Source: Clostridia bacterium (GTDB lineage: Bacteria > Bacillota > Sulfobacillia > SLMV01). Taken from it: a stretch of DNA of 34,324 bases. The position numbers and the translations under genes were made by a program. A model generated the notes under the pieces. It was not told where the DNA came from. It saw only the letters and a program-made list of their open reading frames with translations, and made no database searches. Positions 4,451 through 34,324 of this stretch are shown piece by piece (the stretch's first letter is position 1; every line of letters begins with the position of its first letter). The DNA is taken from assembly GCA_003551365.1 (NCBI GenBank), contig PUMM01000034.1, forward strand, positions 1-34,324, given 5' to 3'.

Positions 4451-5313
4451 TTCGCTCCCTGGATCATGCCACGGTCTTCATTGCCGGGATGGGACTCATG
4501 GGCGGATCACTGGCCCTGGCCCTGCGGGGGAGTGCCGGCCGTATAGTGGGGAGCGATGTGGACCTTGCCGCTCTTTGCGCGGCCCGGACACTGGATGCCG
4601 TGGATGAGACGGTCAAACTGGACTGCTGTGCGGACTGGATCCGTCGCACCGACCTGCTGGTACTGTCCACTCCCCTGGGACAGATGAGCAGATTCCTGCG
4701 CACTGCCGCCCCTCACCTGCGCCCCGGAACCGTGGTCACCGATCTGGGGGGAGCCAAGATGAAGGTGATCGGGGAGATCGAGGCAACTCTTCCCGCAGGG
4801 GTCCGCTACATACCCGGCCACCCCATGGCCGGGTCGGAGAAGCGCGGTATATCGGGCGCAGACGCTTCCCTCTTCCGGCAAGCGGCATGGATGGTAGCAG
4901 AAGAACCTCCGGCCCTGCTGGCGGAGATGATATCTGCGGTCGGCGCCGAACTGATCACCATCGACGCACAGATGCACGACAGGGTGGTGGCCCACACCAG
5001 CCATCTGCCTCATATGATGGCAGCGGCCACCGCTTTCGTCTGTGCAGAGGCGGCAGGAGACAATGAGGGAGCCTTTCAGACCCTCTCTGCCGGCGGATTC
5101 CGTGATACTACTCGCGTGTGCGAGGGCTCCCCGGAGATGGCGGCAGACATGTGTTTGTACAATACCGATGAGCTTCTGCCCGCTCTGGAGCGAGCTGGCG
5201 AAATACTGCTGGATATGTCCGCCGCCCTGCGGGGAGGAGACACAGACTGTCTCCGTTCCTTTCTGCAGGATGCCCGGGACGGACGGCGACGGATTGTGAG
5301 GGACGAACAATGA
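4447..5313 (+). CDS. tyrA: Prephenate dehydrogenase
   Basis: Oxidatively decarboxylates prephenate to 4-hydroxyphenylpyruvate. The 288-residue protein has an N-terminal Rossmann fold with GMGLMGGSLA (about residues 14-23) and the signature HPMAGSEKRGISGA, containing the catalytic histidine. A helical C-terminal domain with HTSHLPHMMA follows. It ends without an ACT domain, so allosteric control is more likely to sit in AroF. The start ATG 4447 overlaps the aroF stop by four bases, and its own stop overlaps the next start in the same way. It is the branch-specific gene that points the operon toward tyrosine; no pheA is present. Confidence 0.95.
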   Translation: MIRSLDHATVFIAGMGLMGGSLALALRGSAGRIVGSDVDLAALCAARTLDAVDETVKLDCCADWIRRTDLLVLSTPLGQMSRFLRTAAPHLRPGTVVTDLGGAKMKVIGEIEATLPAGVRYIPGHPMAGSEKRGISGADASLFRQAAWMVAEEPPALLAEMISAVGAELITIDAQMHDRVVAHTSHLPHMMAAATAFVCAEAAGDNEGAFQTLSAGGFRDTTRVCEGSPEMAADMCLYNTDELLPALERAGEILLDMSAALRGGDTDCLRSFLQDARDGRRRIVRDEQ

Positions 5314-7442
5314 GACTGTGCACGGATGGACCACTCAGAGGAGAGGTCGAGGCGCCGGGAGACAAGTCCTGTTCCCATCGGGCGGCGCTGCTGGCCGCAC
5401 TGACGGATGATGAGGTCACCATTTTCAACTTCGCACCCGGAGAGGACTGCGCGAGCACCCTGGACTGCCTCGCCGCTCTCGGGGTGCCGGTAACCCGGCG
5501 GGGTTCCGAGGTTACGGTACAGGGCAGGGCCGGAGTGCTTGATGAGCCCGATCGCGTGCTGGACTGCGGGAATTCGGGCACCACCATGCGTCTTCTGGCC
5601 GGCCTTCTGAGTGGTCAGCGAATGCATGTCATCCTGAGTGGAGATGACTCGCTCAACAGACGACCCATGGACCGAATAGTCGATCCCCTGCGTCATATGG
5701 GTGCAGATATCAGGATGCGGGAGGAAGCTGGTGCCCCCCTGAGCATCTGCGGGGGGGTAACCCGGGGAGGAGAATACCGCACGCCGGTAGCCAGCGCTCA
5801 GGTCAAGTCGGCCATACTGCTGGCGGGTCTCTATGCGGAATCCGCTACCACGGTGCGCGAGCCCGGCACATCCCGGGATCATACCGAACGGATGCTGGAG
5901 GCATGGGGCGTGCCGGTGCAACGGCACAATGGTCGGGTCCGCCTCGGTGGGAAAGGCCTGTCCCGCTTGAGGGCGCCAGAGGACGGGGTGCGCATACCGG
6001 GAGATATTTCCTCGGTTGCCTTCCTCGTCGCCGCTGCCCTGCTCACACCCGGCTCCGAGGTGCTCATCCGCAATGTGGGCATCAACCCCACCCGCACCGG
6101 CATTCTGGCCGTGCTGGAGAGTATGGATGCGCGGGTGGAGGCGGACAATGTTCGCGATTGGATGGGTGAGCCGGTGGCCGATCTTCTGGTCCGTCACAGC
6201 TCCCTGCGCCCCTTTCAGGTGGAAGAGGATATGGTGCCGACCCTCATCGATGAGATACCCCTTCTCGCCCTGCTGGCAGCGCATGCTCGCGGCACGAGTA
6301 CGTTCCGGGGGGTGGGCGAGCTGCGCTTCAAGGAGACGGACCGGCTGGCCGCAGTGCAGGAAGAACTCGGAGCGGTCGGGGTCCAGTGTCGGGTGCGGGA
6401 GGATACTCTGCTCATAGATGGGGAGGAAGACTTCTCCGCAATCCCGGCCACACCGGACGCCAGGGGTGATCATCGTATGGCCATGACTCTGGCCCTGGCT
6501 GGTCTGCCCGATGGACGGGTAGAGCTGCGGAATGATTCTGCAGTGGATATTTCCTATCCGCAGTTTTTTCATCACCTGCGCTCCCTGGGCGCCCGCCCCT
6601 CCTCGCGGGGCGAGCACCTGCAGATGGGTCTGCTGGGGGAGGGCATCGAAGACAGCGCCTCTCCCCCCATGCTGCGCACGGCTCTGGAGGTGTGCGGCCT
6701 GCGCGGTTCCTACCGGTTGTTCGACGTTGGTTCGAAAGACCTGGGTGCGGCGGTGCGCGGGCTGGGGGCACTGGGAGTGGTTCGGTTCAATGTCACCCGG
6801 CCGCACAAGGTGGCCATATGCAGGTATCTGGACAGACTGGCTCCGTCCGCTCGCGACCTGGAAGCCGTCAACACGGTGGTGCCGGACGGCGGGGAGCTGG
6901 TCGGGCACAACACCGATGTCGCCGGAGTGGCCCGGGCCCTGCGTGACGCCGGTTTCCGTATGCAGGACTCCCGCGTGCTCATTGTTGGTGCAGGTGGCGC
7001 TGCCCGCGCCGCACTGCGGGCGGCGGTGGACGGTGCGGCCGCTGGTGTGCATATCGCCAACCGCTCTCCGCGGGCGGCAGCCGAACTGGCCGGACTCTGG
7101 TGGGCCGAGGACTGTGCAACACAGGTGCACTGCTCGGGACTGACAGATGTCCCCGGCGGGCGCTTCGATCTGATCATACAGGCCACACCCGTCGGGTCAC
7201 TCGATGCGAGCTGCCCGCTGCCGGAGCACTGCCACCTGGGGGCGGGTGTGACGGTTCTGGAGATGATCTACCGGCCGCAGGTGACGTCGCTGGTGCGGCG
7301 GGCCCGGACCGCCGGAGCGAAGGTGGTACCGGGATCGGAGATGCTGCTGCATCAGGGCGCGCGGGCCTTCGAACTGTGGACGGGAGAAGCCGCTCCGGTG
7401 CAGAAGATGAGAGAAGAGCTGGGGAGGGTATTGCGATGGTGA
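5310..7442 (+). CDS. aroA-aroE: Fused EPSP synthase - shikimate dehydrogenase
   Basis: One uninterrupted 710-residue frame. Residues 1 to about 428 are an EPSP synthase resembling the B. subtilis enzyme: APGDKSCSHRA near the start, GNSGTTMRLLAGLL, SLNRRPM, SAQVKSAILLAGLYAE, SRDHTERML, NPTRTGI, LIDEIP and GDHRMAM. Residues about 437-710 are a shikimate dehydrogenase: SASP near 449-452 (family SLSP), NVTRPHK with the catalytic lysine, AVNTVV, GHNTDVAG with the catalytic aspartate, and the NADP loop GAGGAARA followed by ANRS. The linker is only about 8 residues, and no stop or frame change separates the halves. The usual HSLSPxMHN of AroE reads DSASPPMLR here, a divergent substrate-pocket edge. 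The start overlaps the tyrA stop (ATGA) and the stop overlaps aroC by 7 bases. Both activities are predicted intact. This domain pairing is unusual outside the eukaryotic AROM protein. Confidence 0.94.
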   Translation: MRLCTDGPLRGEVEAPGDKSCSHRAALLAALTDDEVTIFNFAPGEDCASTLDCLAALGVPVTRRGSEVTVQGRAGVLDEPDRVLDCGNSGTTMRLLAGLLSGQRMHVILSGDDSLNRRPMDRIVDPLRHMGADIRMREEAGAPLSICGGVTRGGEYRTPVASAQVKSAILLAGLYAESATTVREPGTSRDHTERMLEAWGVPVQRHNGRVRLGGKGLSRLRAPEDGVRIPGDISSVAFLVAAALLTPGSEVLIRNVGINPTRTGILAVLESMDARVEADNVRDWMGEPVADLLVRHSSLRPFQVEEDMVPTLIDEIPLLALLAAHARGTSTFRGVGELRFKETDRLAAVQEELGAVGVQCRVREDTLLIDGEEDFSAIPATPDARGDHRMAMTLALAGLPDGRVELRNDSAVDISYPQFFHHLRSLGARPSSRGEHLQMGLLGEGIEDSASPPMLRTALEVCGLRGSYRLFDVGSKDLGAAVRGLGALGVVRFNVTRPHKVAICRYLDRLAPSARDLEAVNTVVPDGGELVGHNTDVAGVARALRDAGFRMQDSRVLIVGAGGAARAALRAAVDGAAAGVHIANRSPRAAAELAGLWWAEDCATQVHCSGLTDVPGGRFDLIIQATPVGSLDASCPLPEHCHLGAGVTVLEMIYRPQVTSLVRRARTAGAKVVPGSEMLLHQGARAFELWTGEAAPVQKMREELGRVLRW

Positions 7443-8605
7443 GGTACAGAACTGCAGGTGAGTCGCACGGGCGGGCCCTCATGGTCATCATTGAGGGAGT
7501 GCCTGCCGGACTGAACATTGAGCGGAAGGACATTAATGAGGAACTGGCGCGCCGCCAGCTGGGATATGGGCGTGGCGGTCGTATGCAGATTGAGCGGGAT
7601 GAGGTGGAGATTATTTCCGGGGTGCGGCATCGCCGCACACTCGGGAGCCCGATCGGTCTGCTCATACGCAACCGCGACTGGGTTAACTGGGAACAAGCCA
7701 TGTCTCCGGATGATGGAACGGCTGAACCGGTGGTGCGGCCGCGGCCGGGGCACGCCGATCTGGCCGGCCATCACAAGTATGGGCACCGGGACCTGCGCAA
7801 TGTGCTGGAACGGGCCTCTGCCCGCGATACGGCTGCCCGGGTTGCCGCCGGCGCGGTGAGCATGATTCTGTTGCGCGAGCTGGGGGTCCATCTGATCGGC
7901 TGTGTCTGCTCGGTGGGTTCAGTTGCTTCCGGGGGGTTCCCCTCGCAGTGGTTCGAGCGGCCCGCTTCCGAGGTTTACGAATACTGGCGCGAGCTCGAGA
8001 GAGATCGCCCCCTGCGCTGCCCCGATGCCGGGGCGGAACAAGAGATGGTCGAACTGATCGATGCGTGTCGGGATGAGGGCGACACACTGGGCGGCGTGGT
8101 GGAAGTCTGCGCCATGGGGGTGCCGCCCGGACTCGGCAGCTACGCCCAGTGGTCCGACCGGCTGGACGGCCGGCTGGCCCGGGCCCTCATGTCCATTCCG
8201 GGCATCAAGTCGGTGGAGGTCGGCGATGGATTCTCCGCGGCGCAGAGCCGCGGATCCCGGGTGCACGACCCCATAGTGCCGGGTGAGGCCGGGGGTACCC
8301 GGCGTACGTCCAACAACGCGGGCGGATTGGAGGGCGGCGTTACCAATGGCCGCGAGGTGCGGGTGCGGGCGGGAATGAAACCCATCGCCACTCTGCGCAG
8401 GGCCCTGCCGTCTGTGGATCTGTCTACCGGTGAGGCCACATCTGCCCACCACGAGCGTTCCGATGTGTGTGCGGTGCCCTCTGCCGGAGTCGTGGCGGAG
8501 GCGGTCACCGCCGTGGAGCTGGCCGGCGCCATCATTCATCGCTTCGGCGGCGATCGTCTGGACCATCTCCGCGACCGGGTGGAGCGAGAGGGGCGATCCC
8601 CGTGA
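7436..8605 (+). CDS. aroC: Chorismate synthase
   Basis: Converts EPSP to chorismate with reduced FMN as cofactor. The 389-residue protein has normal family length. It has the N-terminal signature RYRTAGESHG, the GHADLAGHHKYG segment, RASARDTAARVAAGA and the C-terminal GGVTNGREVRVR...KPIATL run with flavin and substrate contacts. I chose ATG 7436 because it yields the canonical MVRYRTAGESHG N-terminus, with GGGGAGGG upstream at 7421-7428. It overlaps the 3' end of aroA-aroE by 7 bases and its stop overlaps the next GTG start, so the whole run is coupled. Confidence 0.96.
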   Translation: MVRYRTAGESHGRALMVIIEGVPAGLNIERKDINEELARRQLGYGRGGRMQIERDEVEIISGVRHRRTLGSPIGLLIRNRDWVNWEQAMSPDDGTAEPVVRPRPGHADLAGHHKYGHRDLRNVLERASARDTAARVAAGAVSMILLRELGVHLIGCVCSVGSVASGGFPSQWFERPASEVYEYWRELERDRPLRCPDAGAEQEMVELIDACRDEGDTLGGVVEVCAMGVPPGLGSYAQWSDRLDGRLARALMSIPGIKSVEVGDGFSAAQSRGSRVHDPIVPGEAGGTRRTSNNAGGLEGGVTNGREVRVRAGMKPIATLRRALPSVDLSTGEATSAHHERSDVCAVPSAGVVAEAVTAVELAGAIIHRFGGDRLDHLRDRVEREGRSP

Positions 8606-10200
8606 AAATTGTTCTGGTTGGTTTCATGGGAGCGGGCAAGACCTCCGTCGCTCGCCGGCTGGGCCAACTGCTCCGGCTACCGGTGGTTGATACGGATGAG
8701 ATGATTGTCGACTGGGCGGGACGATCCGTGCCGGAAATCTTTGCCCGGGAGGGCGAGGCGGGCTTTCGCGCTCGCGAGCGGCGGGTGGTGCGGCGGATTG
8801 CCGACCTGCGCAATGTGATAATCGCGGCGGGAGGGGGAGCGCAGGTTGATCCGGAGAACCGGGCCAACCTGCGGCGCGGGGCCCGAGTGGTGCATCTTGC
8901 GGTCTCACCCGGGGCGGTGCGGGAGCGCGTGGATGACTCGCACCGACCACTGCTCGCCGGTGGAGCGACAGGTGAGATAGAGAGACTGATGCGCCGGCGG
9001 GAATCATCCTACGCCCTGGCCGGGGAGGAGATTGATACCACCCACCTGAGTGTACAGGAGGTGGCCGAGCGGCTCGCCCGCGGCTGCGAACCTGCCCCCC
9101 GGGATACGGATATGGGTCAGGTGCGAGAGATGACCGTGCGGGTTGATCCTCCCTATCAGATAGCGGTCGGCGGGGAGATGCTGCAGTCACCTGCGGGGCA
9201 ACTGTCCCGGGTCCTGACTGGCCGGCGGGTGGCTGTGATATCCGATACCCTGGTATGGCAGCTGTGGGGGCGTTCTGTGCGGGATGATCTGCGGCGGGCC
9301 GGGTATCGCACCACCGCCTACCATTTCTGGGGGGGCGAGGGTGGCAAAACCCTCCGCACCGTGGAAGCGGCGGCGGACCGACTGCTGGAGGACGGAGTTG
9401 ATCGGCACTGTCACGTGGTGGTGCTGGGCGGTGGAGTGCCGGGCGATGTGGGCGGAATGGTGGCCGCCGTGCTTCTGCGCGGGATTCCCCTCATCCAGAT
9501 GCCCACCAGCCTGCTGGCGCAGGTGGACAGTTCAGTGGGTGGAAAGGTGGGTGTAAATCACCGCCTGGGCAAGAATATGCTGGGCGCGTTTCACCAGCCG
9601 GACCTGGTCCTCAGTGACGTTAGTACCCTCCGGATTCTGCCGGAGGACGAGTTCCGCAGCGGTCTGGGAGAGGTAATCAAACACGGATTCATTGCCGGAG
9701 GATCCTACCTGCAGATGCTGCGCGACCGACGGGAGGATATCCTGGCTCGCGACCCGCAGGTGCTGCGCGACGTAGTTCTGGGCAGCTGCCGCATCAAGGA
9801 GAGTTTCGTGCGGGGTGATGAGCGCGACCGCGGGCGCCGCATGATGCTCAACTTCGGGCACACCCTGGGTCACGCTATGGAAACGGCAGCGGGGGGGAGG
9901 ATTCCGCACGGCGTCGCGGTCGGATGGGGAATGGCTGCCGCTGCGCGGATTTCCGAGCGCATGAATATCCTATCCCGTGGGGGTCGGCGGGAACTGGAAG
10001 ATATGCTGCACAGCTATGGGCTGCCCAGCGGTCTGCCGGATCTGCGGGATGCTCCCGGGGCGGGAGAGATCATGCGATGTGTGCGATACGACAAGAAGCG
10101 GCGCGATGCCGGAATGCGCTGGATACTTCTGCGCGGTGCGGGGCAGCCAGAGGTGTGCGATAATGTGCCGCAGGAGGTGGTGGCCGAGAGCCTACGGTGA
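8602..10200 (+). CDS. aroK-aroB: Fused shikimate kinase - 3-dehydroquinate synthase
   Basis: A 532-residue fusion starting at GTG 8602, which overlaps the aroC stop (GTGA). Residues 1 to about 165 are shikimate kinase: Walker A GFMGAGKT, DTDEMI, FRARERRVV and AAGGGAQ, with an SHRPLLAG lid region. Residues about 176-532 are 3-dehydroquinate synthase: GGEGGKTLRTVE, GGGVPGDVGGMVAA, MPTSLLAQVDSSVGGKVGVN, GLGEVIKHG (zinc Glu), NFGHTLGHA and IPHGVAVGWG (zinc histidines). An internal ATG near 9112 lacks a good ribosome site, so a single polypeptide is expected. AroK-AroB fusions are known in some bacteria, for example Thermotoga. Here it complements the adjacent AroA-AroE fusion, covering non-consecutive steps of one pathway. 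Confidence 0.95.
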   Translation: MKIVLVGFMGAGKTSVARRLGQLLRLPVVDTDEMIVDWAGRSVPEIFAREGEAGFRARERRVVRRIADLRNVIIAAGGGAQVDPENRANLRRGARVVHLAVSPGAVRERVDDSHRPLLAGGATGEIERLMRRRESSYALAGEEIDTTHLSVQEVAERLARGCEPAPRDTDMGQVREMTVRVDPPYQIAVGGEMLQSPAGQLSRVLTGRRVAVISDTLVWQLWGRSVRDDLRRAGYRTTAYHFWGGEGGKTLRTVEAAADRLLEDGVDRHCHVVVLGGGVPGDVGGMVAAVLLRGIPLIQMPTSLLAQVDSSVGGKVGVNHRLGKNMLGAFHQPDLVLSDVSTLRILPEDEFRSGLGEVIKHGFIAGGSYLQMLRDRREDILARDPQVLRDVVLGSCRIKESFVRGDERDRGRRMMLNFGHTLGHAMETAAGGRIPHGVAVGWGMAAAARISERMNILSRGGRRELEDMLHSYGLPSGLPDLRDAPGAGEIMRCVRYDKKRRDAGMRWILLRGAGQPEVCDNVPQEVVAESLR

Positions 10201-16810: not shown

Positions 16811-17545
16811 ATGGCGACGACAGATACGGCAGTGTTGATACCCGCCTACGACGAAGAACCGAGGATAGAGGCGGTGCTGGATGTAGTCTGCGGTATGGAC
16901 GATCTCAGCATCGTGGTCATAGATGACGGCTCGCGCGATGCGACTGCCGAACGGGCTCTGCAGTATCCCGTCGGTGTGGTACAGCATCGCAGCAATGAGG
17001 GTAAGGGGGCGGCCCTGGAGAGCGGTATGATATACGTGGGCGACGCCCGCTTCTGGGTGTTTCTGGACGCCGACCTCATCAATTTGCGGCGGGAACACAT
17101 CCGCCAGCTTCTGCGACCCCTGCGGGAAGACGCCGATATGGGCATGACGGTGGGACAATTCGTGGAGGGCACCAAGCACGTGGACTGGGCGCAACGTTTC
17201 TTCGCAATTCTGAATGGACAGCGCGCTCTCAGTGATGCCTTCGCCCGCAGCCTCCCCGGCCTGGGGTGGAGCCGATTTGGGATGGAGGTTTTTCTCAGCA
17301 GGTTCGCCGCGCACTCCGGGTGGCCGGTCGGTGAACCCTTTCTGCCGGGTCTGACGCACCACACCAAGGAGAGCAAGATGGGGGCAGCTCGCGGCGTGTG
17401 GGCTCGCCTCAGCATGTACCGGGAGTGTCTCTCGGCGATGCGCCGGTGGCGCAACCACCTGTCGGAGGAGCGAAGGACCGCGCTGTCTGCGGACCGCTGC
17501 AGGATCCTGCAAGAAGTTGAAGGGAAGGGAGCGAGTCAGGGGTGA
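16811..17545 (+). CDS. Family 2 glycosyltransferase
   Basis: A 244-residue soluble GT-A fold enzyme, similar to dolichyl-phosphate-mannose-synthase-like and glucosyl-3-phosphoglycerate-type GT2 proteins. It has VLIPAYDEE at residues 8-16, VIDDGSRD at 37-43, GKGAAL, and the metal-binding DAD at 86-88. There is no transmembrane anchor, and the acceptor cannot be predicted. ATG 16811 follows GGGAGGGAAGGGTGG; upstream in-frame sequence is not conserved-looking. Its stop overlaps the tnaA GTG start (GTGA), so the two are co-translated, although no functional link is obvious. Confidence 0.85.
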   Translation: MATTDTAVLIPAYDEEPRIEAVLDVVCGMDDLSIVVIDDGSRDATAERALQYPVGVVQHRSNEGKGAALESGMIYVGDARFWVFLDADLINLRREHIRQLLRPLREDADMGMTVGQFVEGTKHVDWAQRFFAILNGQRALSDAFARSLPGLGWSRFGMEVFLSRFAAHSGWPVGEPFLPGLTHHTKESKMGAARGVWARLSMYRECLSAMRRWRNHLSEERRTALSADRCRILQEVEGKGASQG

Positions 17546-18924
17546 GGGATCGCCGGGAGTATGCTGAACCTTTCCGCATCAAGATGGTGGAGCCGGTGCA
17601 GCTGATTCCGCGGGAGGAGCGCAGACGCAAAATCGAAGAAGCTGGCTTCAACGTGTTCCGTCTGCGTTCGTCCGAGGTTTTCATCGATTTGCTCACTGAC
17701 AGCGGAACGTCAGCCATGAGCCAGAGCGGTTGGGCCGCGCTGCTGCAGGGGGATGAGGCCTACGCGGGGTCGAGCTCCTATGAGGAAATGAAGGAGACGG
17801 TGCAGGACATATTTGGCTATCCGCACGTCGTGCCCACGCATCAGGGGCGGGCGGCAGAGAACATACTCATGACGATGCTGGTGCAGCCGGGTGACCGCGT
17901 TCCCGGCAATATGCACTTCGATACCACCGAGGGGCACATCATGCTCAACCGCGCCGAACCGGTCAACCTGGTGGTGCAGGAGGGATATCGAATCTCCTCC
18001 GATGCTCCCTTCAAGGGCAACATTGATCTGCAGAGACTGGAGGAGGAGCTGGACAGTAACGGGGATCGCATTCCTTTTGTGCTTCTGACCATCACCTGCA
18101 ACAACAACGGCGGGCAGCCGGTATCCATGCAGAACATCCGGGACACCGCTGAACTGACGCGCAAATATGACGTGCCGCTGTTTTTCGATGCGGCCAGATT
18201 CGCCGAAAACGCCCATTTCATCCGCGAGCGGGAATCCGGGTATGAAGGAGTCGAGATCCGGGACATAGCCCGGGAGATGTTCAGCTGGGGAGATGGGTGC
18301 ACCATGAGCGCCAAAAAGGATGGCCTGGTGAACATCGGCGGTTTCCTGGCTCTGCGGGACGAGGATCTGTACCATCGCGCCATACAGTGGCAGATTCCCT
18401 TCGAGGGATACATCACCTACGGCGGCATGGCCGGGCGGGACATGCAGGCCATGGCCGTTGGCCTGCGCGAGGTCATCGATGAACAGTACCTGCAGGATCG
18501 CATTGGGCAGGTCCGTTACCTGGCTGAGGGTCTGGCCCACCGGGGTGTGCCCGTAATCGAACCGCCGGGAGGTCACGGGGTGTTCATAGACGCCCGGCAG
18601 GTATTTCCCCACATCCCCCAGCGGGACTTTCCCGCTCAGGCCCTGGTAGTGCAGCTGTATCTGGAGGGAGGAGTCCGGGGGGTGGAACTGGGTACCTCCG
18701 CCTTCGGCCGCACCGATCCCGACACGGGGGAGATGCAGTACCCGGAGCTGGAATTGGTGCGTCTGGCCATCCCGCGCCGCGTCTACACCGACCGGCACAT
18801 GGACCGGGTGGTGGAGGCTGCGGCGGCGGTGCTGGAGAGGGGCGGCGAGGTGAGGGGTCTGCAGCTCGTGCGGGAGGCCCCGGTACTGCGCCACTTCACG
18901 GCGGAGTTTGCCCGCCTGCCCTGA
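17542..18924 (+). CDS. tnaA: Tryptophanase
   Basis: A 460-residue PLP enzyme of the beta-eliminating lyase family, cleaving tryptophan to indole, pyruvate and ammonia. Features are EPFRIKMVEP at the N-terminus, LLTDSGTSAMS, GDEAYAGSS, THQGRAAENI, FDAARFAEN and the PLP lysine (K258/K259 in SAKKDG). Tryptophanase is favoured over tyrosine phenol-lyase by H451 in LRHFTAEF (E. coli TnaA H463; phenol-lyase has Phe there), by VELG where phenol-lyase has the substrate-binding Arg of MERG, and by HFDTT in place of YFTTT. GTG 17542 keeps the conserved N-terminus. No tnaC-like leader or permease is adjacent. Confidence 0.92.
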   Translation: MRDRREYAEPFRIKMVEPVQLIPREERRRKIEEAGFNVFRLRSSEVFIDLLTDSGTSAMSQSGWAALLQGDEAYAGSSSYEEMKETVQDIFGYPHVVPTHQGRAAENILMTMLVQPGDRVPGNMHFDTTEGHIMLNRAEPVNLVVQEGYRISSDAPFKGNIDLQRLEEELDSNGDRIPFVLLTITCNNNGGQPVSMQNIRDTAELTRKYDVPLFFDAARFAENAHFIRERESGYEGVEIRDIAREMFSWGDGCTMSAKKDGLVNIGGFLALRDEDLYHRAIQWQIPFEGYITYGGMAGRDMQAMAVGLREVIDEQYLQDRIGQVRYLAEGLAHRGVPVIEPPGGHGVFIDARQVFPHIPQRDFPAQALVVQLYLEGGVRGVELGTSAFGRTDPDTGEMQYPELELVRLAIPRRVYTDRHMDRVVEAAAAVLERGGEVRGLQLVREAPVLRHFTAEFARLP

Positions 18925-25528: not shown

Positions 25529-26659
25529 TCAGGCCCGGCGCAGGGTACGGACCAGGGCGGCCCGGGTGCGCTCCACTTCTGAGAAATCCACGGTAGGTAC
25601 GTAGATGTCCTCCATCTCGCGGTGCATGGATGCCGCCCGGGACAGCTCGCCCCGGGCGCGCCGCAGCGCTGCGCCCCGCGCGCGCCGCAGGTCGCGCAGG
25701 GTGGCGTGCACGGAGTCCAGACGTCCGGGGTGAATGATCCGACTATTGCACAGGAGGCGGGCGGAGTCGGGGGGATGCAGCATCAGTCCCGGCCGGGAGG
25801 TCACCACCGAGGCGCCAATTTCCGGGAGGTGGCAGTGTTGCAGTTTCTGCGGATCCAGGGGAGAGGCAAAGACCCAGCACGCCAGTCCCTCGAGGGCAGC
25901 GCAGTCGCGCAGGTGAGATACGAGCGGGTGGGACAGCAGCCCGGTGCCGTCTCGCACTACGTACAGATTGGGCGAGGCGGAGACCAGATCGCTGACGTGC
26001 GATACCGGACCCTCCGGACCGAGGGCGGAGAGAAACAGCCGCCGGGTACGGGGGAGGTGAGGGCAGATGGGTACGCGGTCGACCGCGCGCCGCAGTATGT
26101 CCCGTGTGACCTCCGTGATCGTGCGCCGCCGCGCTCCGTCATCCACTGCCCCGCTGCGGCGCAGGATCCTTCGGGCGCCGCTGTCGCATCTGCCCGCTGC
26201 GGCGAGGTGAGTGTGGGCGGCCAAAAAATGAAGAGCGGTGCGGCGCTGCAGGGAGGCAATCTCTTCCCGCCTGCCGCTCAGCGCGGCCCGTCTCCAGTGG
26301 CGGGAGAGATCCACCAGATGATCGGCTGCTCCCGGCAGCTGCGGGTCCATCGGGTGTGGGTGAGTTCCATCGACGAGGAGGGCGCCGGCCGATGGGAAGT
26401 AGATGGCATCCAGCGAGTCGGGATCGGAGGGACACCAGTAGAACTCGACCCTCCACCCGTCGCCCGCGAGATCCCAGGCCGTACGCTGCAGGAAGGTGGA
26501 TTTTCCCGTCCCCGGTCCGCCCTTCAGCACGTGGGTGCTGCGCACCGCGTCGCCGCCGATCTGCTGGAAGCGAGAGCAGAAGCCGTATCTGCTGTTGGCC
26601 GCTGGAAAGAAGTTTGCTGGCTGGTGTCCGGTGTGACCGGTTTCCCCCGCAACCCGCAT
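25529..26659 (-). CDS. P-loop ATPase of the PRK06851 family
   Basis: A 376-residue predicted ATPase. Walker A is KGGPGTGKST (residues 46-55), followed by VEFYWCPSDPDSLDAIYFP and LVDGTHPHPMDP. The C-terminal half repeats the layout (WVFASPLDPQKLQHCHLPEI), but its P-loop position reads VRDGTGLLSHP, so the second nucleotide site is degenerate. Family members often have two intact loops. No partner domain identifies a substrate. It faces ligD across a 120-base divergent gap, which does not by itself imply a repair role. ATG 26659 has AGGATG upstream on the minus strand. Confidence 0.8.
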   Translation of the reverse strand: MRVAGETGHTGHQPANFFPAANSRYGFCSRFQQIGGDAVRSTHVLKGGPGTGKSTFLQRTAWDLAGDGWRVEFYWCPSDPDSLDAIYFPSAGALLVDGTHPHPMDPQLPGAADHLVDLSRHWRRAALSGRREEIASLQRRTALHFLAAHTHLAAAGRCDSGARRILRRSGAVDDGARRRTITEVTRDILRRAVDRVPICPHLPRTRRLFLSALGPEGPVSHVSDLVSASPNLYVVRDGTGLLSHPLVSHLRDCAALEGLACWVFASPLDPQKLQHCHLPEIGASVVTSRPGLMLHPPDSARLLCNSRIIHPGRLDSVHATLRDLRRARGAALRRARGELSRAASMHREMEDIYVPTVDFSEVERTRAALVRTLRRA

Positions 26660-26781
26660 TCACTCACATCCTCTCATGACCCCTCCGGGGATATGCCCGG
26701 AAGGAAGAAGGGAATCATAGGGGAGGCTTTGCTCTACCTATACGCCGTCAGTGCCATTTGATTCGTCGAGGGGATGTTCCG

Positions 26782-28734
26782 TTGCGCCACAAACAGTACT
26801 TTCCGCCCATGCTCGCGGTGTCCGGCCGGCGACTCCCGCCGGGATCGCAGTGGATACACGAGATCAAACTGGATGGTGTGCGGGTGCTCACACTGGTGGA
26901 GGGCGACCGGGTACAATTTCTCTCCCGCCGGGGCAACCCGCTCCCCGCCCTGGGACGATGGGCAGACGAGGTGGCGGAGCGGGTGCGTCCGGCGTCTGCT
27001 GTGCTGGATGGCGAGGTCGTGGCCTTCGCGGATGATGGACGTCCGTGTTTTACTACCCTGATGGCGCTGCTGCGCCGTGGGCGGTTCGGGGGGAGCGCTC
27101 ATCGTTTTCCGCTGTGCCTGTACCTCTTTGACCTGCTGCACTGTGGAGGGCGGGACCTGCGCCATCGCGCGTTGACCGCCCGGCGGGAGGTGCTGCGCAG
27201 CGCGGTGCGGTGGGGCGGACTGCTGCGGCGCTCGGCCGCCGTCGGTGGAGAGAGGGGTGAGCAGTTTTTGCGCGCGGTCGATGCCCTGGGCTATGAGGGG
27301 GTGGTGAGTAAGGATGCCACCAGCGGCTATACCGCCGGGCGGAGCTCCAGGTGGCGCAAGCTGCCGCTGCGCGCCGAGGGTCGTTTTTTCATCCATGCCG
27401 TGCGGGAGGGAAAGAGGGGCCTCACTCTGTCCCTGGGAGTGCGGGGGGAGGATGGCGGGTTGCGGCCCACGGGTGCGGTAGTGCTGCCGGAGAGCCGGCG
27501 GGAGGATCTGCTCGGGCACGGTTGTGCTGATCACACCGGTGCAGGGGGTGCCGGTTGCGGCACACGCTCGCAGCCAGTGAATCCGATGGCGGCAGCCCGT
27601 GTGCACTACACGGAGATCACCCCGGCCGGTGGACTCCGACACCCCATGTACGGCGGGCTCATCCCGTTCCCCGGGGTGGTCTGCGCGTGGACGCATCTGG
27701 AGAAAAACCGGGCCAGGAGGCGGAAAACGGGTGCGGACCCCGATACGTCCGGGAGCGGCGAAGGACGGGATATCCGGCTGGCGGACCTCCTGCAGCCGCA
27801 TGGGTCGGGTGCCCGGCTCCGCGTGGGGGGAGACATCCTGCACCTCAGCAACCTGGATCGTTCCCTGGGAGGGGAATGGAATATGAGCAAGCTGGATGCC
27901 CTCGACTACTACTGGACCGTGCGCAGGGCCTTCCTCCGGCATGTGGCGGGCCGCCCCCTGCTGCTCACCCGTTATCCGCGCGGGGCGGCGGGAGAGGGTT
28001 TCTACCAGCGGAGACCACCGGAGCCCCGTCCGTCCAGGCTGCAGACGGTCCGTCTGGGCAGCGGGGAGGGGCAGGAGGGCGCCGGGAGAGAGCTGGTGCT
28101 GTGCGGGGACGAGCAAACTCTCCTGTGGCTGATAAACCTGGGCGCCTACGAGATTCACCCTCTGCCTGAGACCGGGGATCGACGCCGCGACGTGATCATC
28201 TTAGATCTGGACCCCGCCGGAAGGACGGACAGCAGGGAGGTGGTGCTGGCGGCGCAGGTGACCGAACAGATGCTGGGACGGGCGGGCCTGCGCAGCTGGG
28301 TCAAGACCTCGGGAGGGCGGGGAGTGCACATTGTGATCCCCCTGGCCCGCCCGTACCCCTCCGGGCAGGTCACAGAAGCTGCGCGGATAATGGGAAAGAT
28401 CCTCACGGGGTCGCGCCCCCACCTGTTCACTCTGGAGAGGACCCGGATGGGGCGCGACGGCAAGGTGTACGTGGATTACCTGCAGAACCGGCGCGGGGCG
28501 ACAGTGGTGGCCCCGTACTGCATGCGGATGCGGCGGAATCCGGGTGTCTCAGTTCCGCTGTTGTGGAGCGAGGTGTATGCTGCGCGGGGGAGGGGACTCC
28601 CGCAGCATACCCCGGCCAGCGCTGCGCAGCGCTATCGCCGGTGGGGCGATCCCTGGGCCGGCCTGCCGGAGGAGGAGGGGTACGGACTGCGTGATCTGCT
28701 CAGACGACTGCGTACAGTTGTGGAAGGGAGCTGA
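26782..28734 (+). CDS. ligD: NHEJ DNA ligase-polymerase LigD
   Basis: A 650-residue, two-domain end-joining enzyme in the Bacillus order. Residues 1 to about 340 are an ATP-dependent ligase: nucleotidyl lysine K29 in EIKLDGVR, SRRG, LDGEVVAF, EGVVSKD and the motif V SRWRKLPL, followed by an OB-like part. Residues about 345-640 are a primase-like polymerase, with SKLDALDYYW and catalytic D475/D477 in IILDLDP and a KTSGGRGVHIV segment. No 3'-phosphoesterase domain is present, unlike Mycobacterium LigD. TTG 26782 follows GAGGGGAT by five bases and precedes RHKQYFPPMLA; an upstream TTG at 26758 is less well placed. ku follows after four bases. Confidence 0.92.
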   Translation: MRHKQYFPPMLAVSGRRLPPGSQWIHEIKLDGVRVLTLVEGDRVQFLSRRGNPLPALGRWADEVAERVRPASAVLDGEVVAFADDGRPCFTTLMALLRRGRFGGSAHRFPLCLYLFDLLHCGGRDLRHRALTARREVLRSAVRWGGLLRRSAAVGGERGEQFLRAVDALGYEGVVSKDATSGYTAGRSSRWRKLPLRAEGRFFIHAVREGKRGLTLSLGVRGEDGGLRPTGAVVLPESRREDLLGHGCADHTGAGGAGCGTRSQPVNPMAAARVHYTEITPAGGLRHPMYGGLIPFPGVVCAWTHLEKNRARRRKTGADPDTSGSGEGRDIRLADLLQPHGSGARLRVGGDILHLSNLDRSLGGEWNMSKLDALDYYWTVRRAFLRHVAGRPLLLTRYPRGAAGEGFYQRRPPEPRPSRLQTVRLGSGEGQEGAGRELVLCGDEQTLLWLINLGAYEIHPLPETGDRRRDVIILDLDPAGRTDSREVVLAAQVTEQMLGRAGLRSWVKTSGGRGVHIVIPLARPYPSGQVTEAARIMGKILTGSRPHLFTLERTRMGRDGKVYVDYLQNRRGATVVAPYCMRMRRNPGVSVPLLWSEVYAARGRGLPQHTPASAAQRYRRWGDPWAGLPEEEGYGLRDLLRRLRTVVEGS

Positions 28735-28738
28735 TGTT

Positions 28739-29539
28739 GTGCAGAGGAGTGTGTGGAGCGGGGTCATCAGCTTTGGACTGGTGGCGGTGCCGGTGCGCCT
28801 GTTTCCGGCCACCCGGCGGCGCGCCCCCCAGTTCAATCTGCTGCATCGACGGTGTGGGAGCAGAATACAGTACAGGAAGTGGTGCCCCCGATGTGAGGAG
28901 GAGTTGTCGGCTGAGGAACTGGTCCGGGGGTACGAGTATGCCCGCGGTCAGTATGTGACCCTGGAGGATGAGGATATTCGGGGGGCCGCCGGCGAGCAAA
29001 CCGGTCGGATCGATCTGGCCACCTTTGCCCGGTTGTCGGAGATAGATCCGGTGTACTACGATCGAACCTATCATGCTGTGCCGGAGAGGGCCGGCCGCAG
29101 GGCGGGGGCACTGCTGGCCGATGCACTGCACCGGCACGATCGCGTGGGCGTCGGCCACTGCATCCTGCGCACCAAGCCGCATCTGGCGGCAGTTCGCAGT
29201 GGGGAGACGGGTCTGCTGGTGCAGACCATGTACTACCCGGATGAAGTGACGGAGGTACCGCAGGTGGAAGGTTTGCCCGGATCAATGCCCGCGGCGGAGG
29301 AGGTGGGAGACGCCGAGCGGGAGATGGCTGCGCAGCTGGTGACCAATCTGTCGGAGCCCTTTGACCCGGGACAGTTCTCCAACGAGTACCGCGGGCGGCT
29401 GGAGGAGCTGATAGACGGCAAGATCGCGGGGCGGGAGATCGTGATCCCGCCGGAGCGGCCCAGGGGGGAAGTCATCGACCTGCTGGAGGCGCTGGAGAAG
29501 AGCGTGGAGGCCGCGGAGGATGGAGAGCATCGGGGATGA
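28739..29539 (+). CDS. ku: Bacterial Ku end-binding protein
   Basis: A 266-residue Ku homodimer subunit that binds double-strand break ends and recruits LigD. The family N-terminus is VWSGVISFGLVAVPVRLF, followed by CGSRIQYRKWCPRC (cysteines 40, 49 and 52), VRGYEYARGQYVTLEDED and a YYPDEVTEVP segment. GTG 28739 lies four bases after ligD with GGGAG upstream; the frame runs open into ligD but carries no Ku sequence there. ligD and ku form an operon, as expected for end joining in germinating spores or stationary cells. Confidence 0.93.
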   Translation: MQRSVWSGVISFGLVAVPVRLFPATRRRAPQFNLLHRRCGSRIQYRKWCPRCEEELSAEELVRGYEYARGQYVTLEDEDIRGAAGEQTGRIDLATFARLSEIDPVYYDRTYHAVPERAGRRAGALLADALHRHDRVGVGHCILRTKPHLAAVRSGETGLLVQTMYYPDEVTEVPQVEGLPGSMPAAEEVGDAEREMAAQLVTNLSEPFDPGQFSNEYRGRLEELIDGKIAGREIVIPPERPRGEVIDLLEALEKSVEAAEDGEHRG

Positions 29540-29842: not shown

Positions 29843-30877
29843 ATGCACGTGCGATTTGATGTTTCGAACTGGGGAGGCGTGAGTTCCCACTGGGATAGAT
29901 TGCGCGCCGCTCTTCTGCATGAAAAGACCGATCGCATGCCCGTCAGCATGTGGCGGCACTTTCCGGGATTTGAGAGTTCATCTGAGGAACTGGCCCGCGT
30001 TCATCTGGCCTTTCAGCTTCGCTTTGACTTCGATCTGATGGTGTTCAGCCCGCGCTATGCGTACACTGCTGAACCTTGGGGGTATGTTCCGTCCGAAGAG
30101 CTCGATGAGCAGGGACGGGCGGTAGATGCACACCGGCCCTTCTCCGGACTGGAGAAGTGGCCAGATCTCTCCGTGCCCCGCGCGGACGAAGGAGTATTGG
30201 GGACGGTGCTGGATGCTCTGGGGCTTACGGTTCGCAACCTTCCGCATGAGGTCCCACTGATTCTCACGGTGTACGCTCCGTTGACCACCGCATACCTGCT
30301 GCGCGGTGAACACCTTGCCGGTGACGTCGACGAGGATGGATGCATGTCGGAGGAGCTGGCTGCTGCGACCGACGCGATAGAGGAGACCCTGGCGGATTTC
30401 TGCCGACGTGCCCTGCAGGTGGCTGACGGTCTCTACGTCATCTCATATTTTTGCGGTGATCAGGTGATCGAGGATGAAGAGGCGGGGAGACGTCTCATGC
30501 AGCGGGAGCTGTCCTTCGTGGAAAGATTCAGCGATTGTGAGCGTCTGCTGGCCCTGCACATGCACGCGGACCACATTCTCTTCGATGACATTCTCGAGTA
30601 TCCGCTTGACGTCCTCAGCTGGCATGATCGGTGGGTCAAACCCAGCCTGCGCGACGCCCGCATCAAAAGTGACAAGGTGCTGATGGGCGGCATAAATGAA
30701 TCGGACACCGTGCACCGCGAGACGGAGGCTGCCGTCAGCCTGCAGGTGGAGGATGCCATAAGCCAGGTCAAGGGCAAGGGACTCATCGTGGCTCCCGGCG
30801 GGGCGATCAAACTGGATACGCCAGTGCAGAACATCCGGGCAGTCATACGGGCAGCGGAGCTGGTGAACCAGACTTGA
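29843..30877 (+). CDS. Uroporphyrinogen decarboxylase-fold protein, not HemE
   Basis: A 344-residue protein with the UroD-type barrel pattern. It begins with a domain containing HWDRLRAALLHEKTDRMPVSM and ends with LIVAPGGAIKLDTPVQNIRA, the usual UroD-family tail (compare GCVIPxxTPxENL). The HemE hallmark MRQAGR segment is absent, and the sequence is closer in style to the MtaA/CmuA methyltransferase-like branch. It may therefore act on a methylated or carboxylated small molecule, but no corrinoid protein or methyltransferase partner lies nearby. ATG 29843 follows GGGAGGG. It lies 137 bases upstream of the decarboxylase gene, so a functional link is uncertain. Confidence 0.78.
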   Translation: MHVRFDVSNWGGVSSHWDRLRAALLHEKTDRMPVSMWRHFPGFESSSEELARVHLAFQLRFDFDLMVFSPRYAYTAEPWGYVPSEELDEQGRAVDAHRPFSGLEKWPDLSVPRADEGVLGTVLDALGLTVRNLPHEVPLILTVYAPLTTAYLLRGEHLAGDVDEDGCMSEELAAATDAIEETLADFCRRALQVADGLYVISYFCGDQVIEDEEAGRRLMQRELSFVERFSDCERLLALHMHADHILFDDILEYPLDVLSWHDRWVKPSLRDARIKSDKVLMGGINESDTVHRETEAAVSLQVEDAISQVKGKGLIVAPGGAIKLDTPVQNIRAVIRAAELVNQT

Positions 30878-31014: not shown

Positions 31015-32628
31015 ATGGCACGCATGACCGGAGGAAGGGCAGTCGTGGAGGCACTGATCCGCGAGGGTGTGGACCGGGTCTTCGGAATCCCCGGGGTTCA
31101 CACCATGGAAATCTACGATGAGCTGTACGAGCGCAGGGACGACATTACCCATGTGGTGAGCCGGCACGAGGGGGGCGCTGGATTCATGGCCGATGGTTAC
31201 GCCAGGGCCTCCGGAGAAATCGGGGTGTGTCTGGTGATAACGGGTCCCGGGGTCACCAACGCGACCACTGCACTGGGACAGGCCTATTCTGATTCGTCGC
31301 CCGTGCTCATGATTTCCAGCCAGAATGATACGGAGCACATGGACCGCGATGTGGGGGCACTGCACCAGCTGAAGGATCAGCTGTCTGTGACCGATGGGTG
31401 CACGGCCTGGACGCGCCGGGTGATGGATCCGGCTGACATACCGGAGGCCATCTCCGATGCGGCAGCGTATCTGCGAACGCACCGTCCCCGCCCCGTACAC
31501 ATCGATATCCCCACCGACGTCCTGGAGTCCGAGGCGGAGATTTCCTTTGCCGATTCCGGGCGCACTGCCGAGCAGTTTGCTCCCAGTCCGGCCAGGATGG
31601 ACCAGGCGGTGCAGATGCTGGTAGATGCGGAGCGTCCGCTCATATGGGTGGGCGGCGGCGCCACAGGGGCCGGTGAGGAGATAACCGAGCTGGCAGAGAT
31701 GCTCGACGCCGCAGTGGTCATGACCTGCGCCGGCAAGGGTGTGGTGCGGGAGGATCACCCACTGAACATAGGGAGTCGCCTCCGGGGAGATGACGAGAGA
31801 GTGGTGCAGGACTTCGTTGCCACGGGGGATATTGTGCTGGTCATCGGCAGTGAGCTGGGCGTGGTGGATACCATGGGGGGCCAGGTGCAGCTGTCCGAGC
31901 GGATGATCCGGGTGGATGTGGATGCCCCGGGCGGGGACAAACTGTACCGGCCGGAGCTGGAAATACGCAGCGATGCCCGCATATTCTGCCGACAGCTGCT
32001 GCAGCGCCTGCGCGACCTGCCGGAGGATGACTTTGGTGCGGGTGACTCCTTCCGGGCAGAGATCAGTGCTGTGCAGGATGCTCTGGAGACTGAACCGGCG
32101 GACGATGGAGGGCCCCGCCCCATAATCGACTCCCTGCGGCAGTCGCTGGGCGATGAGGATATAGTGGTATGTGACATGACCATGCTGTGCTACCGGGCCA
32201 CCGCTCTTTACCCGGCGTACGCGCCGAACACCCTGCTGTTTCCGCGCGGTTTCGGCACACTGGGTTGGGGACTGCCGGCGGCCGTCGGGGTGCAGATGGG
32301 TGCCCCGAATCGCCAGGTGGTGACCGTGTGCGGGGACGGCGGGTTCATGTTCACCGTGCAGGAGTTGGCCACGGCGGTGAAGTACCAGCTGCCCATAGCG
32401 ATTCTTCTGATGAACAATGACAGCTACGGGGTGGTGGACAAGAATATGCGGCACCGTTACGATCGGGCCATCGGGTGCGACATCGCCAACCCCGACTTTA
32501 TGCAGATGGCCGAGTCTTTTGGCATTGCTGCGCGGCGCCTGAACGATGCTTCTGAACTGCCGGCCGCCCTGGAGGAGGCTGCAGACGCTGATGGCCCCAC
32601 GCTGATAGAGTTCTGCGTCGACTTCTGA
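31015..32628 (+). CDS. ThDP-dependent 2-oxoacid decarboxylase, AruI-like
   Basis: A 537-residue thiamine diphosphate enzyme. It has FGIPGVHTMEIYDELYE near the start, the activating E52 in SRHEGGAGFMADGYARASG, GPGVTNATTALGQAY and the cofactor motif GDG (440-442) ending with NN (467-468). The N-terminal pattern resembles AruI, the 2-ketoarginine (5-guanidino-2-oxopentanoate) decarboxylase of the arginine transaminase pathway, more than acetolactate synthase; this is pattern recognition, not a search. ATG 31015 follows GGAGG (31001-31005) by nine bases. The aminotransferase 41 bases downstream would supply its keto acid. Substrate inferred. Confidence 0.88.
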   Translation: MARMTGGRAVVEALIREGVDRVFGIPGVHTMEIYDELYERRDDITHVVSRHEGGAGFMADGYARASGEIGVCLVITGPGVTNATTALGQAYSDSSPVLMISSQNDTEHMDRDVGALHQLKDQLSVTDGCTAWTRRVMDPADIPEAISDAAAYLRTHRPRPVHIDIPTDVLESEAEISFADSGRTAEQFAPSPARMDQAVQMLVDAERPLIWVGGGATGAGEEITELAEMLDAAVVMTCAGKGVVREDHPLNIGSRLRGDDERVVQDFVATGDIVLVIGSELGVVDTMGGQVQLSERMIRVDVDAPGGDKLYRPELEIRSDARIFCRQLLQRLRDLPEDDFGAGDSFRAEISAVQDALETEPADDGGPRPIIDSLRQSLGDEDIVVCDMTMLCYRATALYPAYAPNTLLFPRGFGTLGWGLPAAVGVQMGAPNRQVVTVCGDGGFMFTVQELATAVKYQLPIAILLMNNDSYGVVDKNMRHRYDRAIGCDIANPDFMQMAESFGIAARRLNDASELPAALEEAADADGPTLIEFCVDF

Positions 32629-32669
32629 GGCGAGGTACCGGAGGGACAATTCACAGGGAGGTTTTATTG

Positions 32670-33857
32670 ATGCAGGATCGGTATTATGATCTGGTATCAG
32701 AACGAGTTCGCCGCAACATGGAACGCCAGTCGCCCAGCTGGGGGGGAGCAGCCCGTCCCGACGCCGTGCCCCTCAATTACGGATTTCCCTATCCGGAATC
32801 CTACCCGCTGGAGGATCTGATTGAGGCGTGCGCCACCGCCCTGCGGGAGGACGGCTCCGAGGCGCTGCGATATGGGGGCGGCCCGCTCGCCGGGGAATTC
32901 GACGCCATGGTCGCCGACCGCTGCAACGAGCGCGGGCTGCAGGTGGATGATGAAAACATCATAGTGACCAACGGTTCGGCGCAGGCCATAACGGTGGTGT
33001 GTGATCTGCTGATCGACCCAGACGACGTGGTGCTGGTGGAGGCCCCCACCTACATGGGCGCCCTGCGGGAGTTCGAGAACTTCTGCGCCGATGTGCGCGG
33101 CGTGGACATGGATGACGATGGCATACTGACAGAAGAGCTGGAGCGCATTCTGGCCGATGGAGTGCGGCCAAAGTTTCTGTACACCATGCCCAACTTTCAC
33201 AACCCGGCCGGCTGCACCATGAGCATGCAGCGCCGGCGCCGGCTCCTCGAACTGGCGGAGGAATACAATTTCCTGCTGGTGGAGGATGATGCCTACGGAG
33301 AGCTGCGCTACGACGGTGAAGACCTGCCGGCCCTGCGCGCGCTTGACGAGACGGACCGGGTGTTCCACCTGGGATCCATGTCCAAGATTCTGGCGCCGGG
33401 TTTCCGCCTGGGCTGGATTATCGGTCCGCCATCCCTGATGGAGCAGGGAGATCGGCTGAAGGTGGACGGTGGCACCGGCCCCTTCGTACGGGCCATGATC
33501 GGCGCCTATCTGCGGGAGATCGACCTGGATGAGAGGATTATCCGCATACGGGAGGGCTACCGGCGGCGGCGCGACGCTGCGCTGCGCGCCCTGCGGGAGT
33601 ACATGCCGGAGGGCTGCAGCTGGAGTGAGCCCGAGGGCGGGTACTTCCTGTGGCTGACTCTGCCAGAATCGGTGGATGTCACCGTTCTGATGGAGGATAT
33701 CGCGGAGGCGGGGGCCAACCCCCTGGCCGGGAACATATTTTTCCCGGACGACCGCGGCAGAAATAACCTGCGCCTATCCTTCAGCTATCCGGATGAGGCC
33801 GAGCTGGAGCGCGGTATCCGCGCAATCGCCCGGGTCACGGCCGGACAGATGGAGTGA
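32670..33857 (+). CDS. Class I PLP aminotransferase
   Basis: A 395-residue fold-type I aminotransferase of the LysN/2-aminoadipate and MocR-catalytic-domain type. It has LNYGFPYPESYPLEDLIEA, YGGGPLAGEF, TNGSAQAI, the NFHNPAG motif, EDDAYGELRY and the PLP lysine K239 in SMSKILAPGFRLGW. No DNA-binding domain is present, so it is an enzyme, not a MocR regulator. ATG 32670 has AGGGAGG eight bases upstream. Between a ThDP decarboxylase and a guanidino-group enzyme, it would fit the transaminase step of arginine breakdown; specificity is not readable from sequence. Confidence 0.88.
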   Translation: MQDRYYDLVSERVRRNMERQSPSWGGAARPDAVPLNYGFPYPESYPLEDLIEACATALREDGSEALRYGGGPLAGEFDAMVADRCNERGLQVDDENIIVTNGSAQAITVVCDLLIDPDDVVLVEAPTYMGALREFENFCADVRGVDMDDDGILTEELERILADGVRPKFLYTMPNFHNPAGCTMSMQRRRRLLELAEEYNFLLVEDDAYGELRYDGEDLPALRALDETDRVFHLGSMSKILAPGFRLGWIIGPPSLMEQGDRLKVDGGTGPFVRAMIGAYLREIDLDERIIRIREGYRRRRDAALRALREYMPEGCSWSEPEGGYFLWLTLPESVDVTVLMEDIAEAGANPLAGNIFFPDDRGRNNLRLSFSYPDEAELERGIRAIARVTAGQME

Positions 33858-33870
33858 GGGGAGACCCGTC

Positions 33871-34324
33871 ATGACTGAGCTGCGTAGCGAGGGCGAACGC
33901 TGGTTTGCGCTGGAGACTGACTTCACTGCGGACCTCGCGGAGTACTGGGGACCCTGGGGCGTCGACTCGGAGACTGGACAGCTGCGGGCGGTGCTGCTCC
34001 GCCGCCCCGGGCCGGAGGTCGATGCCGTACGGGACCCATCCGAGGCGCGGTGGCTGGACTGTATGGACGGCGAGTTGGCGCGGCGCCAGCACGATGACCT
34101 GGCGCAGATCTACCGGGATGCCGGCGCCGAGGTGCACTACGTGCAGGATATGGACCCGGGAAAGCCCAACGCGCTGTTCATGCGCGATCTGGTGGTCATG
34201 ACCCCGGAAGGAGCCATCGTTGCGCGCCCGGCCATGCCCGCCCGGCGGGGTGAGGAGAGATATGTCGCGGCGACGCTGTCTGCCCTGGGTGTGCCGATCA
34301 TCCGTACCATAAGCGGAACCGGCG
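33871..34324 (+). CDS. Amidinotransferase/dimethylargininase-family enzyme, 3' partial
   Basis: The frame is open from ATG 33871 to the window edge, giving 151 residues of a protein that continues beyond it. The visible part matches the N-terminal half of the guanidino-group modifying superfamily (arginine deiminase, dimethylarginine dimethylaminohydrolase, amidinotransferase). It has LRAVLLRRPG, then NALFMRDLVVMTPEGAIVAR with MPARRGEE, the usual Asp/Arg substrate-side motifs. The catalytic His and Cys are not in the window, so deiminase, hydrolase and transferase cannot be told apart. It starts 13 bases after the aminotransferase stop and so very probably shares its operon. Confidence 0.85.
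   Translation, partial: MTELRSEGERWFALETDFTADLAEYWGPWGVDSETGQLRAVLLRRPGPEVDAVRDPSEARWLDCMDGELARRQHDDLAQIYRDAGAEVHYVQDMDPGKPNALFMRDLVVMTPEGAIVARPAMPARRGEERYVAATLSALGVPIIRTISGTG

Follow-up and report, generated by a model that had tools for sequence, protein, structure and literature searches.

The 3' end of the 34,324-nucleotide window, which is the whole of contig C196 (PUMM01000034.1) in a draft Clostridia bacterium genome of 2.78 Mb (201 contigs, 86% complete), encodes a 2-oxo-acid decarboxylase, an aminotransferase, and a guanidino hydrolase, preceded by a protein of the UroD/MtaA superfamily. These four genes form a conserved cluster and are arranged as follows:

29843..30877, +: UroD/MtaA-superfamily protein, 344 aa, PF01208; first of the four conserved genes
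31015..32628, +: thiamine diphosphate (ThDP)-dependent 2-oxo-acid decarboxylase, AruI/PRK08266 region, PF02776/PF00205/PF02775
32667 (TTG) or 32670 (ATG)..33857, +: class I pyridoxal phosphate (PLP) aminotransferase (AT), 396 aa, PF00155 Aminotran_1_2
33871 (ATG)..34324, +: N-terminal half of a compact guanidino-modifying enzyme (GME), a hydrolase of the arginine deiminase (ADI) type, up to the contig end; the remainder is bases 1-468 of contig C113

Open reading frames (ORFs) and domain matches bear out the order, strand, and spacing in which the sequence-only reading had placed the last three genes (gaps of 38-41 bp between the ThDP and AT genes and 13 bp between the AT and GME genes); the UroD-like gene was absent from that reading. 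The ThDP ORF is open from 30946, and because its homologues begin MTGG, the ATG at 31015, which gives MARMTGG, is a reasonable start. The first 152 residues of the GME match only dimethylargininase (DDAH) and ADI models. This part covers profile positions up to 151, while the C113 part begins at 159; the ends of the two contigs share no overlap, and the continuation past 34324 is nevertheless drawn from synteny with related genomes. Another GME paralogue of this genome (C61/C149) is likewise broken mid-gene at contig ends, perhaps because the GME copies confuse the assembler.

Conservation of the four-gene cluster

The cluster was compared across a family sample of eight genomes from five genera, the window's genome included, and searches were extended to 154 genomes of the class and 399 of the phylum. 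The order UroD-like, ThDP, AT, GME is kept in all eight family genomes wherever the contigs allow, except that the AT is missing in G005; it is unbroken in G001, G002, and G004 and split across contig ends in G000, G003, G006, and G007. This conservation excludes a chance arrangement and upholds the earlier claim that an AruI-like decarboxylase, a class I aminotransferase, and a guanidino hydrolase constitute one unit. The UroD-like gene is present in all eight genomes and always adjoins the ThDP gene. Its subfamily scores 580-628 bits in the family, with the next best match among the 154 class genomes at 229 bits, and at E 1e-60 the phylum sample contains no member except the window's own. 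A conserved RNA element was sought in the stretch between the UroD-like and ThDP genes (~105-160 bp), but column identity is 46% and the folds disagree with one another (z 1.1, -0.1, 0.6, -1.5, -2.2), so we claim none.

Beyond 34324, where the sequence-only reading had suggested looking for aldehyde dehydrogenase (ALDH), guanidinobutyrase, transporter, or regulator genes, C113 carries none of these; the GME (L156:1-468) is followed by a Peptidase_S11 D-Ala-D-Ala carboxypeptidase (DacF) and then a UPF0182 protein. Homologues of both also trail the GME in G001, G004, and G007 (L022, L029, L031), and, judged by length and position, in G003 and G006 (L158, L159). No linked ALDH or guanidinobutyrase lies beside the family clusters examined. 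Upstream of the UroD-like gene, G002, G004, G006, and G007 encode a PF07969 amidohydrolase resembling N-acyl-D-amino-acid deacylase, and the window, G001, and G005 encode LigD/Ku-like proteins, which are taken to be unrelated to the cluster. In the window these genes span 26758-29539 (+): LigD has its ligase domain first and its primase-polymerase domain second, and an overlapping gene after it reads as Ku (bacterial end joining). An ORF at 25529-26659 (-) weakly resembles nSTAND NTPases (23.8 bits, under the cut-off of 34), and genes that look similar are found close to the cluster in G001, G003, and G005.

Pairs of AT and ThDP genes are also found in other families of the class. Among 93 non-family genomes, nine contain an AruI-like ThDP enzyme (>=330 bits) and 22 a GME (>=300 bits), and both occur in eight of the nine ThDP-bearing genomes (hypergeometric 2.4e-5, uncorrected for kinship, with two of the genomes congeneric). 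Several families of the class (L033, L034, L035, L036) have, immediately upstream of their AruI-like ThDP gene, one for a metal-dependent hydrolase of the UPF0173 type; the one in L035 passes the PRK00685 cut-off.

Enzymes of the cluster and partner genes elsewhere

The complete compact GME is ~312 aa long and contains no helical domain; the full-length orthologue L022:3775-4710 (-) provides the residue numbering used here. Profiles place it at similar distances from ADI and DDAH, and it passes no curated NCBIfam cut-off, scoring 115 bits against 489 for TIGR01078 (ArcA, about 400 aa at full length with a helical domain) and 87 and 95 bits against 450 and 340 for NF045658 and NF045660 (DDAH). 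Nine residues that align to the substrate and catalytic residues of DDAH and ADI (N99, D105, R124, E153, R172, H204, D206, N255, C301) are conserved in 20/20 compact GMEs compared, and the window and C113 parts together keep them all, save E153, the position of which is lost in the contig gap. The ADI residues N160, D166, R185, E224, R243, H278, D280, and C406 are all present in the GME, where N99 matches the ADI residue responsible for binding the alpha-amino group and D206 occupies the Asp280 position, at which DDAH has Lys. ADIs retain an Asp two residues past the catalytic His, in DDAHs a Lys at this position makes room for methyl groups, and the substrate carboxylate is held by arginines (PMC11659421). 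Because ADI-type residues occupy its substrate and catalytic positions, the compact GME looks like an arginine deiminase lacking the helical domain.

The GME subfamily occurs in 46/154 class genomes (~30% at E 1e-40, some of the hits being more distant paralogues) and in 10/399 phylum genomes, four of them from the window's own class. Outside the family, four lineages (L166, L169, L175, L239) have a polar amino-acid ABC transporter beside the GME; a beta-aspartyl-peptidase-like gene (320 against a cut-off of 331) is nearby in L166 and an AT of the same subfamily in L169, and in L235 a tandem GME stands ahead of a protein that reads by eye as argininosuccinate lyase. These neighbourhoods point to arginine and, together with the ADI-type residues, argue well for the arginine-type substrate previously suggested for the hydrolase. 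At L019:6452-8305 and L026:6428-8092, an M14 zinc carboxypeptidase gene is divergent from a second GME paralogue; its product might supply the deiminase with arginine cleaved from C-termini. At L173:6947-10428 the GME is flanked by two saccharopine-dehydrogenase-like genes, an arrangement that recalls cyanobacterial fused deiminase/ornithine cyclodeaminase proteins.

All three TPP_enzyme domains (N, M, and C) match the ThDP protein, and NF005712 ('5-guanidino-2-oxopentanoate decarboxylase', cut-off 500) scores 514.5 for the window and 505.7, 495.4, and 456.2 for orthologues. Searching named genomes with the ThDP alignment retrieved mainly AruI homologues from Pseudomonas and no sequence from the window's family, and in the tree Natrarchaeobius is a weakly supported sister (90/88) of the family clade. 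G003 and G005 contain ThDP paralogues apart from any AT, one of which, in G005, adjoins a beta-eliminating lyase gene (L026). The window also encodes a beta-eliminating lyase of the tryptophanase/tyrosine phenol-lyase type (17542-18924, +), similar to that gene. According to PMC7268258, the purified AruI homologue of Sinorhizobium meliloti, IlvB1, uses 5-amino-2-oxopentanoate sevenfold better than the guanidino substrate, and its partner aminotransferase AspC accepted arginine, ornithine, agmatine, and putrescine, a precedent for such a pair taking both the arginine and the ornithine series. By this analogy, the ThDP enzyme is as likely to decarboxylate an ornithine-derived keto acid, formed after deimination, as 2-ketoarginine.

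The AT groups with archaeal multi-substrate aminotransferases, LysN, KAT-II, and MppQ, with SMSKILAP as the region of its PLP lysine. Its best solved relatives are 1wst, 1x0m, and 3aov, followed by LysN (2egy) and MppQ (8tn2). An AT model that gives family members >650 bits gives the aminotransferases neighbouring Pseudomonas AruI ~100 bits, placing these in a different subfamily.

The UroD-like protein matches PF01208 with 69 bits (cut-off 23.9), while two MtaA models yield 44 and 33 bits against cut-offs of 244 and 400. Its conserved motifs include HxH (residues 239/241) and WHDR (260-263). In alignments including 4ay7, the zinc ligands HxC...C of MtaA/CmuA methyltransferases are replaced by HxH and, for the third Cys, by Gly (APGG); wider relatives in the class retain the Cys that the family has lost. 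A phmmer search against the PDB gave no match, and a profile search found MtaA alone (E=0.003). A role in cobalamin methyl transfer was considered and dropped, as the MtaA zinc-site residues are changed. We found no paper joining UroD-family proteins with arginine, an aminotransferase, and a ThDP enzyme.

Several potential partners are encoded away from the cluster. No family genome (0/8) contains a canonical ArcA over cut-off, whereas carbamate kinase exceeds its cut-off in 8/8, against 2/14 controls. In the window's genome, ornithine carbamoyltransferase (OTC), a P-loop protein, and carbamate kinase occur in a row at two loci (L222:35-3260 and L224:1292-4757; OTC matches of 424 and 418 versus 281 bits). 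The P-loop protein resembles cyclic-diphosphoglycerate synthetase by eye, and this genome has three carbamate kinase genes in all. ALDH is present but unlinked in six of the eight family genomes and missing from two drafts, and every genome contains three to eight aldehyde:ferredoxin oxidoreductase (AOR) domains, although presence is not proof of use. All eight also encode an unlinked member of the ureohydrolase family; that of the window's genome is named agmatinase by NCBIfam, and its nearest solved relative is the guanidinobutyrase 3nio (241 bits versus 193 for agmatinase).

Interpretations of the cluster

We infer, with a probability of about 0.5, that the four genes are a presumably co-transcribed operon by which arginine and its immediate products are broken down anaerobically. 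The compact GME would deiminate arginine to citrulline and ammonia, and the citrulline would be split by the OTC and carbamate kinase encoded elsewhere to yield ATP and ornithine. The AT may remove the alpha-amino group from arginine and/or ornithine, possibly also from citrulline, and the ThDP enzyme would decarboxylate the 2-oxo acid to a C4 aldehyde (4-guanidino- or 4-aminobutyraldehyde), which the unlinked AORs (or ALDH) could oxidise to 4-guanidinobutyrate or 4-aminobutyrate (GABA). For the 4-guanidinobutyrate stage, the unlinked guanidinobutyrase-like ureohydrolase would be at hand. The UroD-like protein is a constant member of the cluster whose place in this route is unexplained. Most likely, then, the operon rearranges known enzyme types into a variant of known pathways, with one unexplained UroD-like protein in addition.

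A number of observations weigh against an arginine operon. Of the four family orthologues tested, two fall below the NF005712 cut-off, PRK08266 gives the ThDP protein almost the same score (473, cut-off 571), identity to proteobacterial AruI is ~40%, and the family ThDP clade (support 100/99) is separate from a 20-row, mainly proteobacterial AruI clade (100/100). The position outside the AruI clade, the orthologues on either side of the cut-off, and the preference of the rhizobial homologue weaken a strict AruI identity. In the compact GME, Trp stands at the position of Arg401 of ADI, and neither OTC nor carbamate kinase adjoins any of the GME genes examined. At least three further GME genes occur in the window's genome (C61/C149, C35, C123), so that the GME of the cluster need not be the main deiminase. 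In G005, which reads UroD-like, ThDP, GME, a gap of ~560 bp without a called gene separates the ThDP and GME genes. Finally, an arginine operon leaves the role of the UroD-like protein unaccounted for.

The AT/ThDP pair may instead serve another amino acid, such as an aromatic or branched-chain one, with the GME as a bystander in an operon that ferments several amino acids. Among solved proteins, those nearest to the AT are multi-substrate or kynurenine/aminoadipate enzymes, the sequence does not resolve the substrate specificity of the ThDP enzyme, and the ThDP paralogues of G003 and G005 lie apart from an AT; however, the order of AT, ThDP, and GME genes is maintained over four genera, ThDP and GME co-occur outside the family, and the GME of G020 has an AT nearby, and we regard this alternative as possible but rather improbable. 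A strict AruH/AruI pathway, in which the GME follows the transaminase or the decarboxylase, takes 2-ketoarginine or 4-guanidinobutyrate as its substrate, and replaces guanidinobutyrase, would suit a ThDP enzyme that passes the AruI model and an AT linked to it within and outside the family; moreover, the S. meliloti ureohydrolase SpeB2 acts on several guanidino intermediates (PMC7268258). Yet 8/8 genomes have a guanidinobutyrase-like ureohydrolase in any case, the GME keeps the alpha-amino-binding N99, and many genomes have a GME without ThDP and AT genes, some beside amino-acid ABC transporters, which makes this pathway unlikely.

Methylated arginine, an alternative substrate in the sequence-only reading, is disfavoured because Asp206 stands where DDAH has the Lys that makes room for methyl groups (PMC11659421). 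In such a pathway the GME would be a dimethylargininase, as near to it by profile as to ADI, and the UroD-like protein would transfer methyl groups, its superfamily including methylcobamide:coenzyme M (CoM) methyltransferases; but neither Cys zinc ligand of MtaA is retained in it and the cluster contains no corrinoid protein gene, so we consider it very improbable. No more plausible is a small-molecule biosynthetic cluster with an MppQ-like AT (enduracididine), the ThDP enzyme as a carboligase, and the UroD-like protein in tailoring: MppQ (TIGR04461) ranks second among the NCBIfam matches to the AT and is a solved relative, but its 218 bits fall short of the cut-off of 540, no NRPS/PKS, export, or resistance genes occur in the cluster, and the flanks are housekeeping genes.

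The UroD-like protein is the strongest reason for follow-up. It could be a new enzyme of arginine catabolism, acting for example on a C4 guanidino, amino, or ureido aldehyde or on a 2-oxo acid made by the AT or ThDP enzyme, in which case the operon would be an undescribed route of arginine fermentation needing no linked ALDH or ureohydrolase; we hold this to be doubtful. If the proposed arginine operon is correct, arginine breakdown in uncultured Bacillota is fed by a compact deiminase that differs from canonical ArcA, and the arginine/ornithine transaminase-decarboxylase pair has members other than those of Pseudomonas. The UroD-superfamily protein would gain a defined metabolic context, in which its function can be put to the test.

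Other features of the window and comparison with known systems

The sole Rfam match in the window is a T-box leader far from the cluster (RF00230, 109.7 bits, 2751-2988, +), consistent with Bacillota, which precedes an aromatic amino-acid biosynthesis operon on the same strand. This operon encodes 3-deoxy-D-arabino-heptulosonate 7-phosphate (DAHP) synthase (3428-4450), prephenate dehydrogenase (4447-5313), and two apparent fusions, a 710-aa ORF (5310-7442) with 5-enolpyruvylshikimate-3-phosphate (EPSP) synthase and shikimate dehydrogenase domains and a 577-aa ORF (8467-10200) with shikimate kinase and 3-dehydroquinate synthase.

Among known systems, the cluster shares with MtaA and UroD the Pfam family PF01208, although its zinc site is altered and its scores are far under the MtaA cut-offs. 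With DDAH the GME has in common its size without the helical domain, its fold family, and its catalytic Cys, His, and Glu, but it has Asp for the DDAH Lys and falls under all DDAH cut-offs. The arginine deiminase pathway (ArcA, OTC, carbamate kinase) is similar in its ADI-type active site and in the presence of OTC and carbamate kinase in the genome; here, in contrast, the hydrolase is far under the ArcA cut-off at ~312 aa, has the R401 to W change, and is unlinked to the other two enzymes. In S. meliloti, an aminotransferase likewise adjoins an AruI homologue (AspC-IlvB1), in an arginine network (CATCH-N) that itself also holds arginine deiminases and ureohydrolases; in our cluster the guanidino hydrolase is encoded alongside the pair, and a UroD-like member goes unmentioned in the available part of that source (PMC7268258). 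Like Pseudomonas AruH-AruI, finally, the cluster combines a class I aminotransferase and a ThDP decarboxylase in one unit, but with an AT of a different subfamily, a ThDP enzyme outside the AruI clade, and no linked ALDH, and it includes in addition an ADI-type hydrolase and a UroD-like protein.

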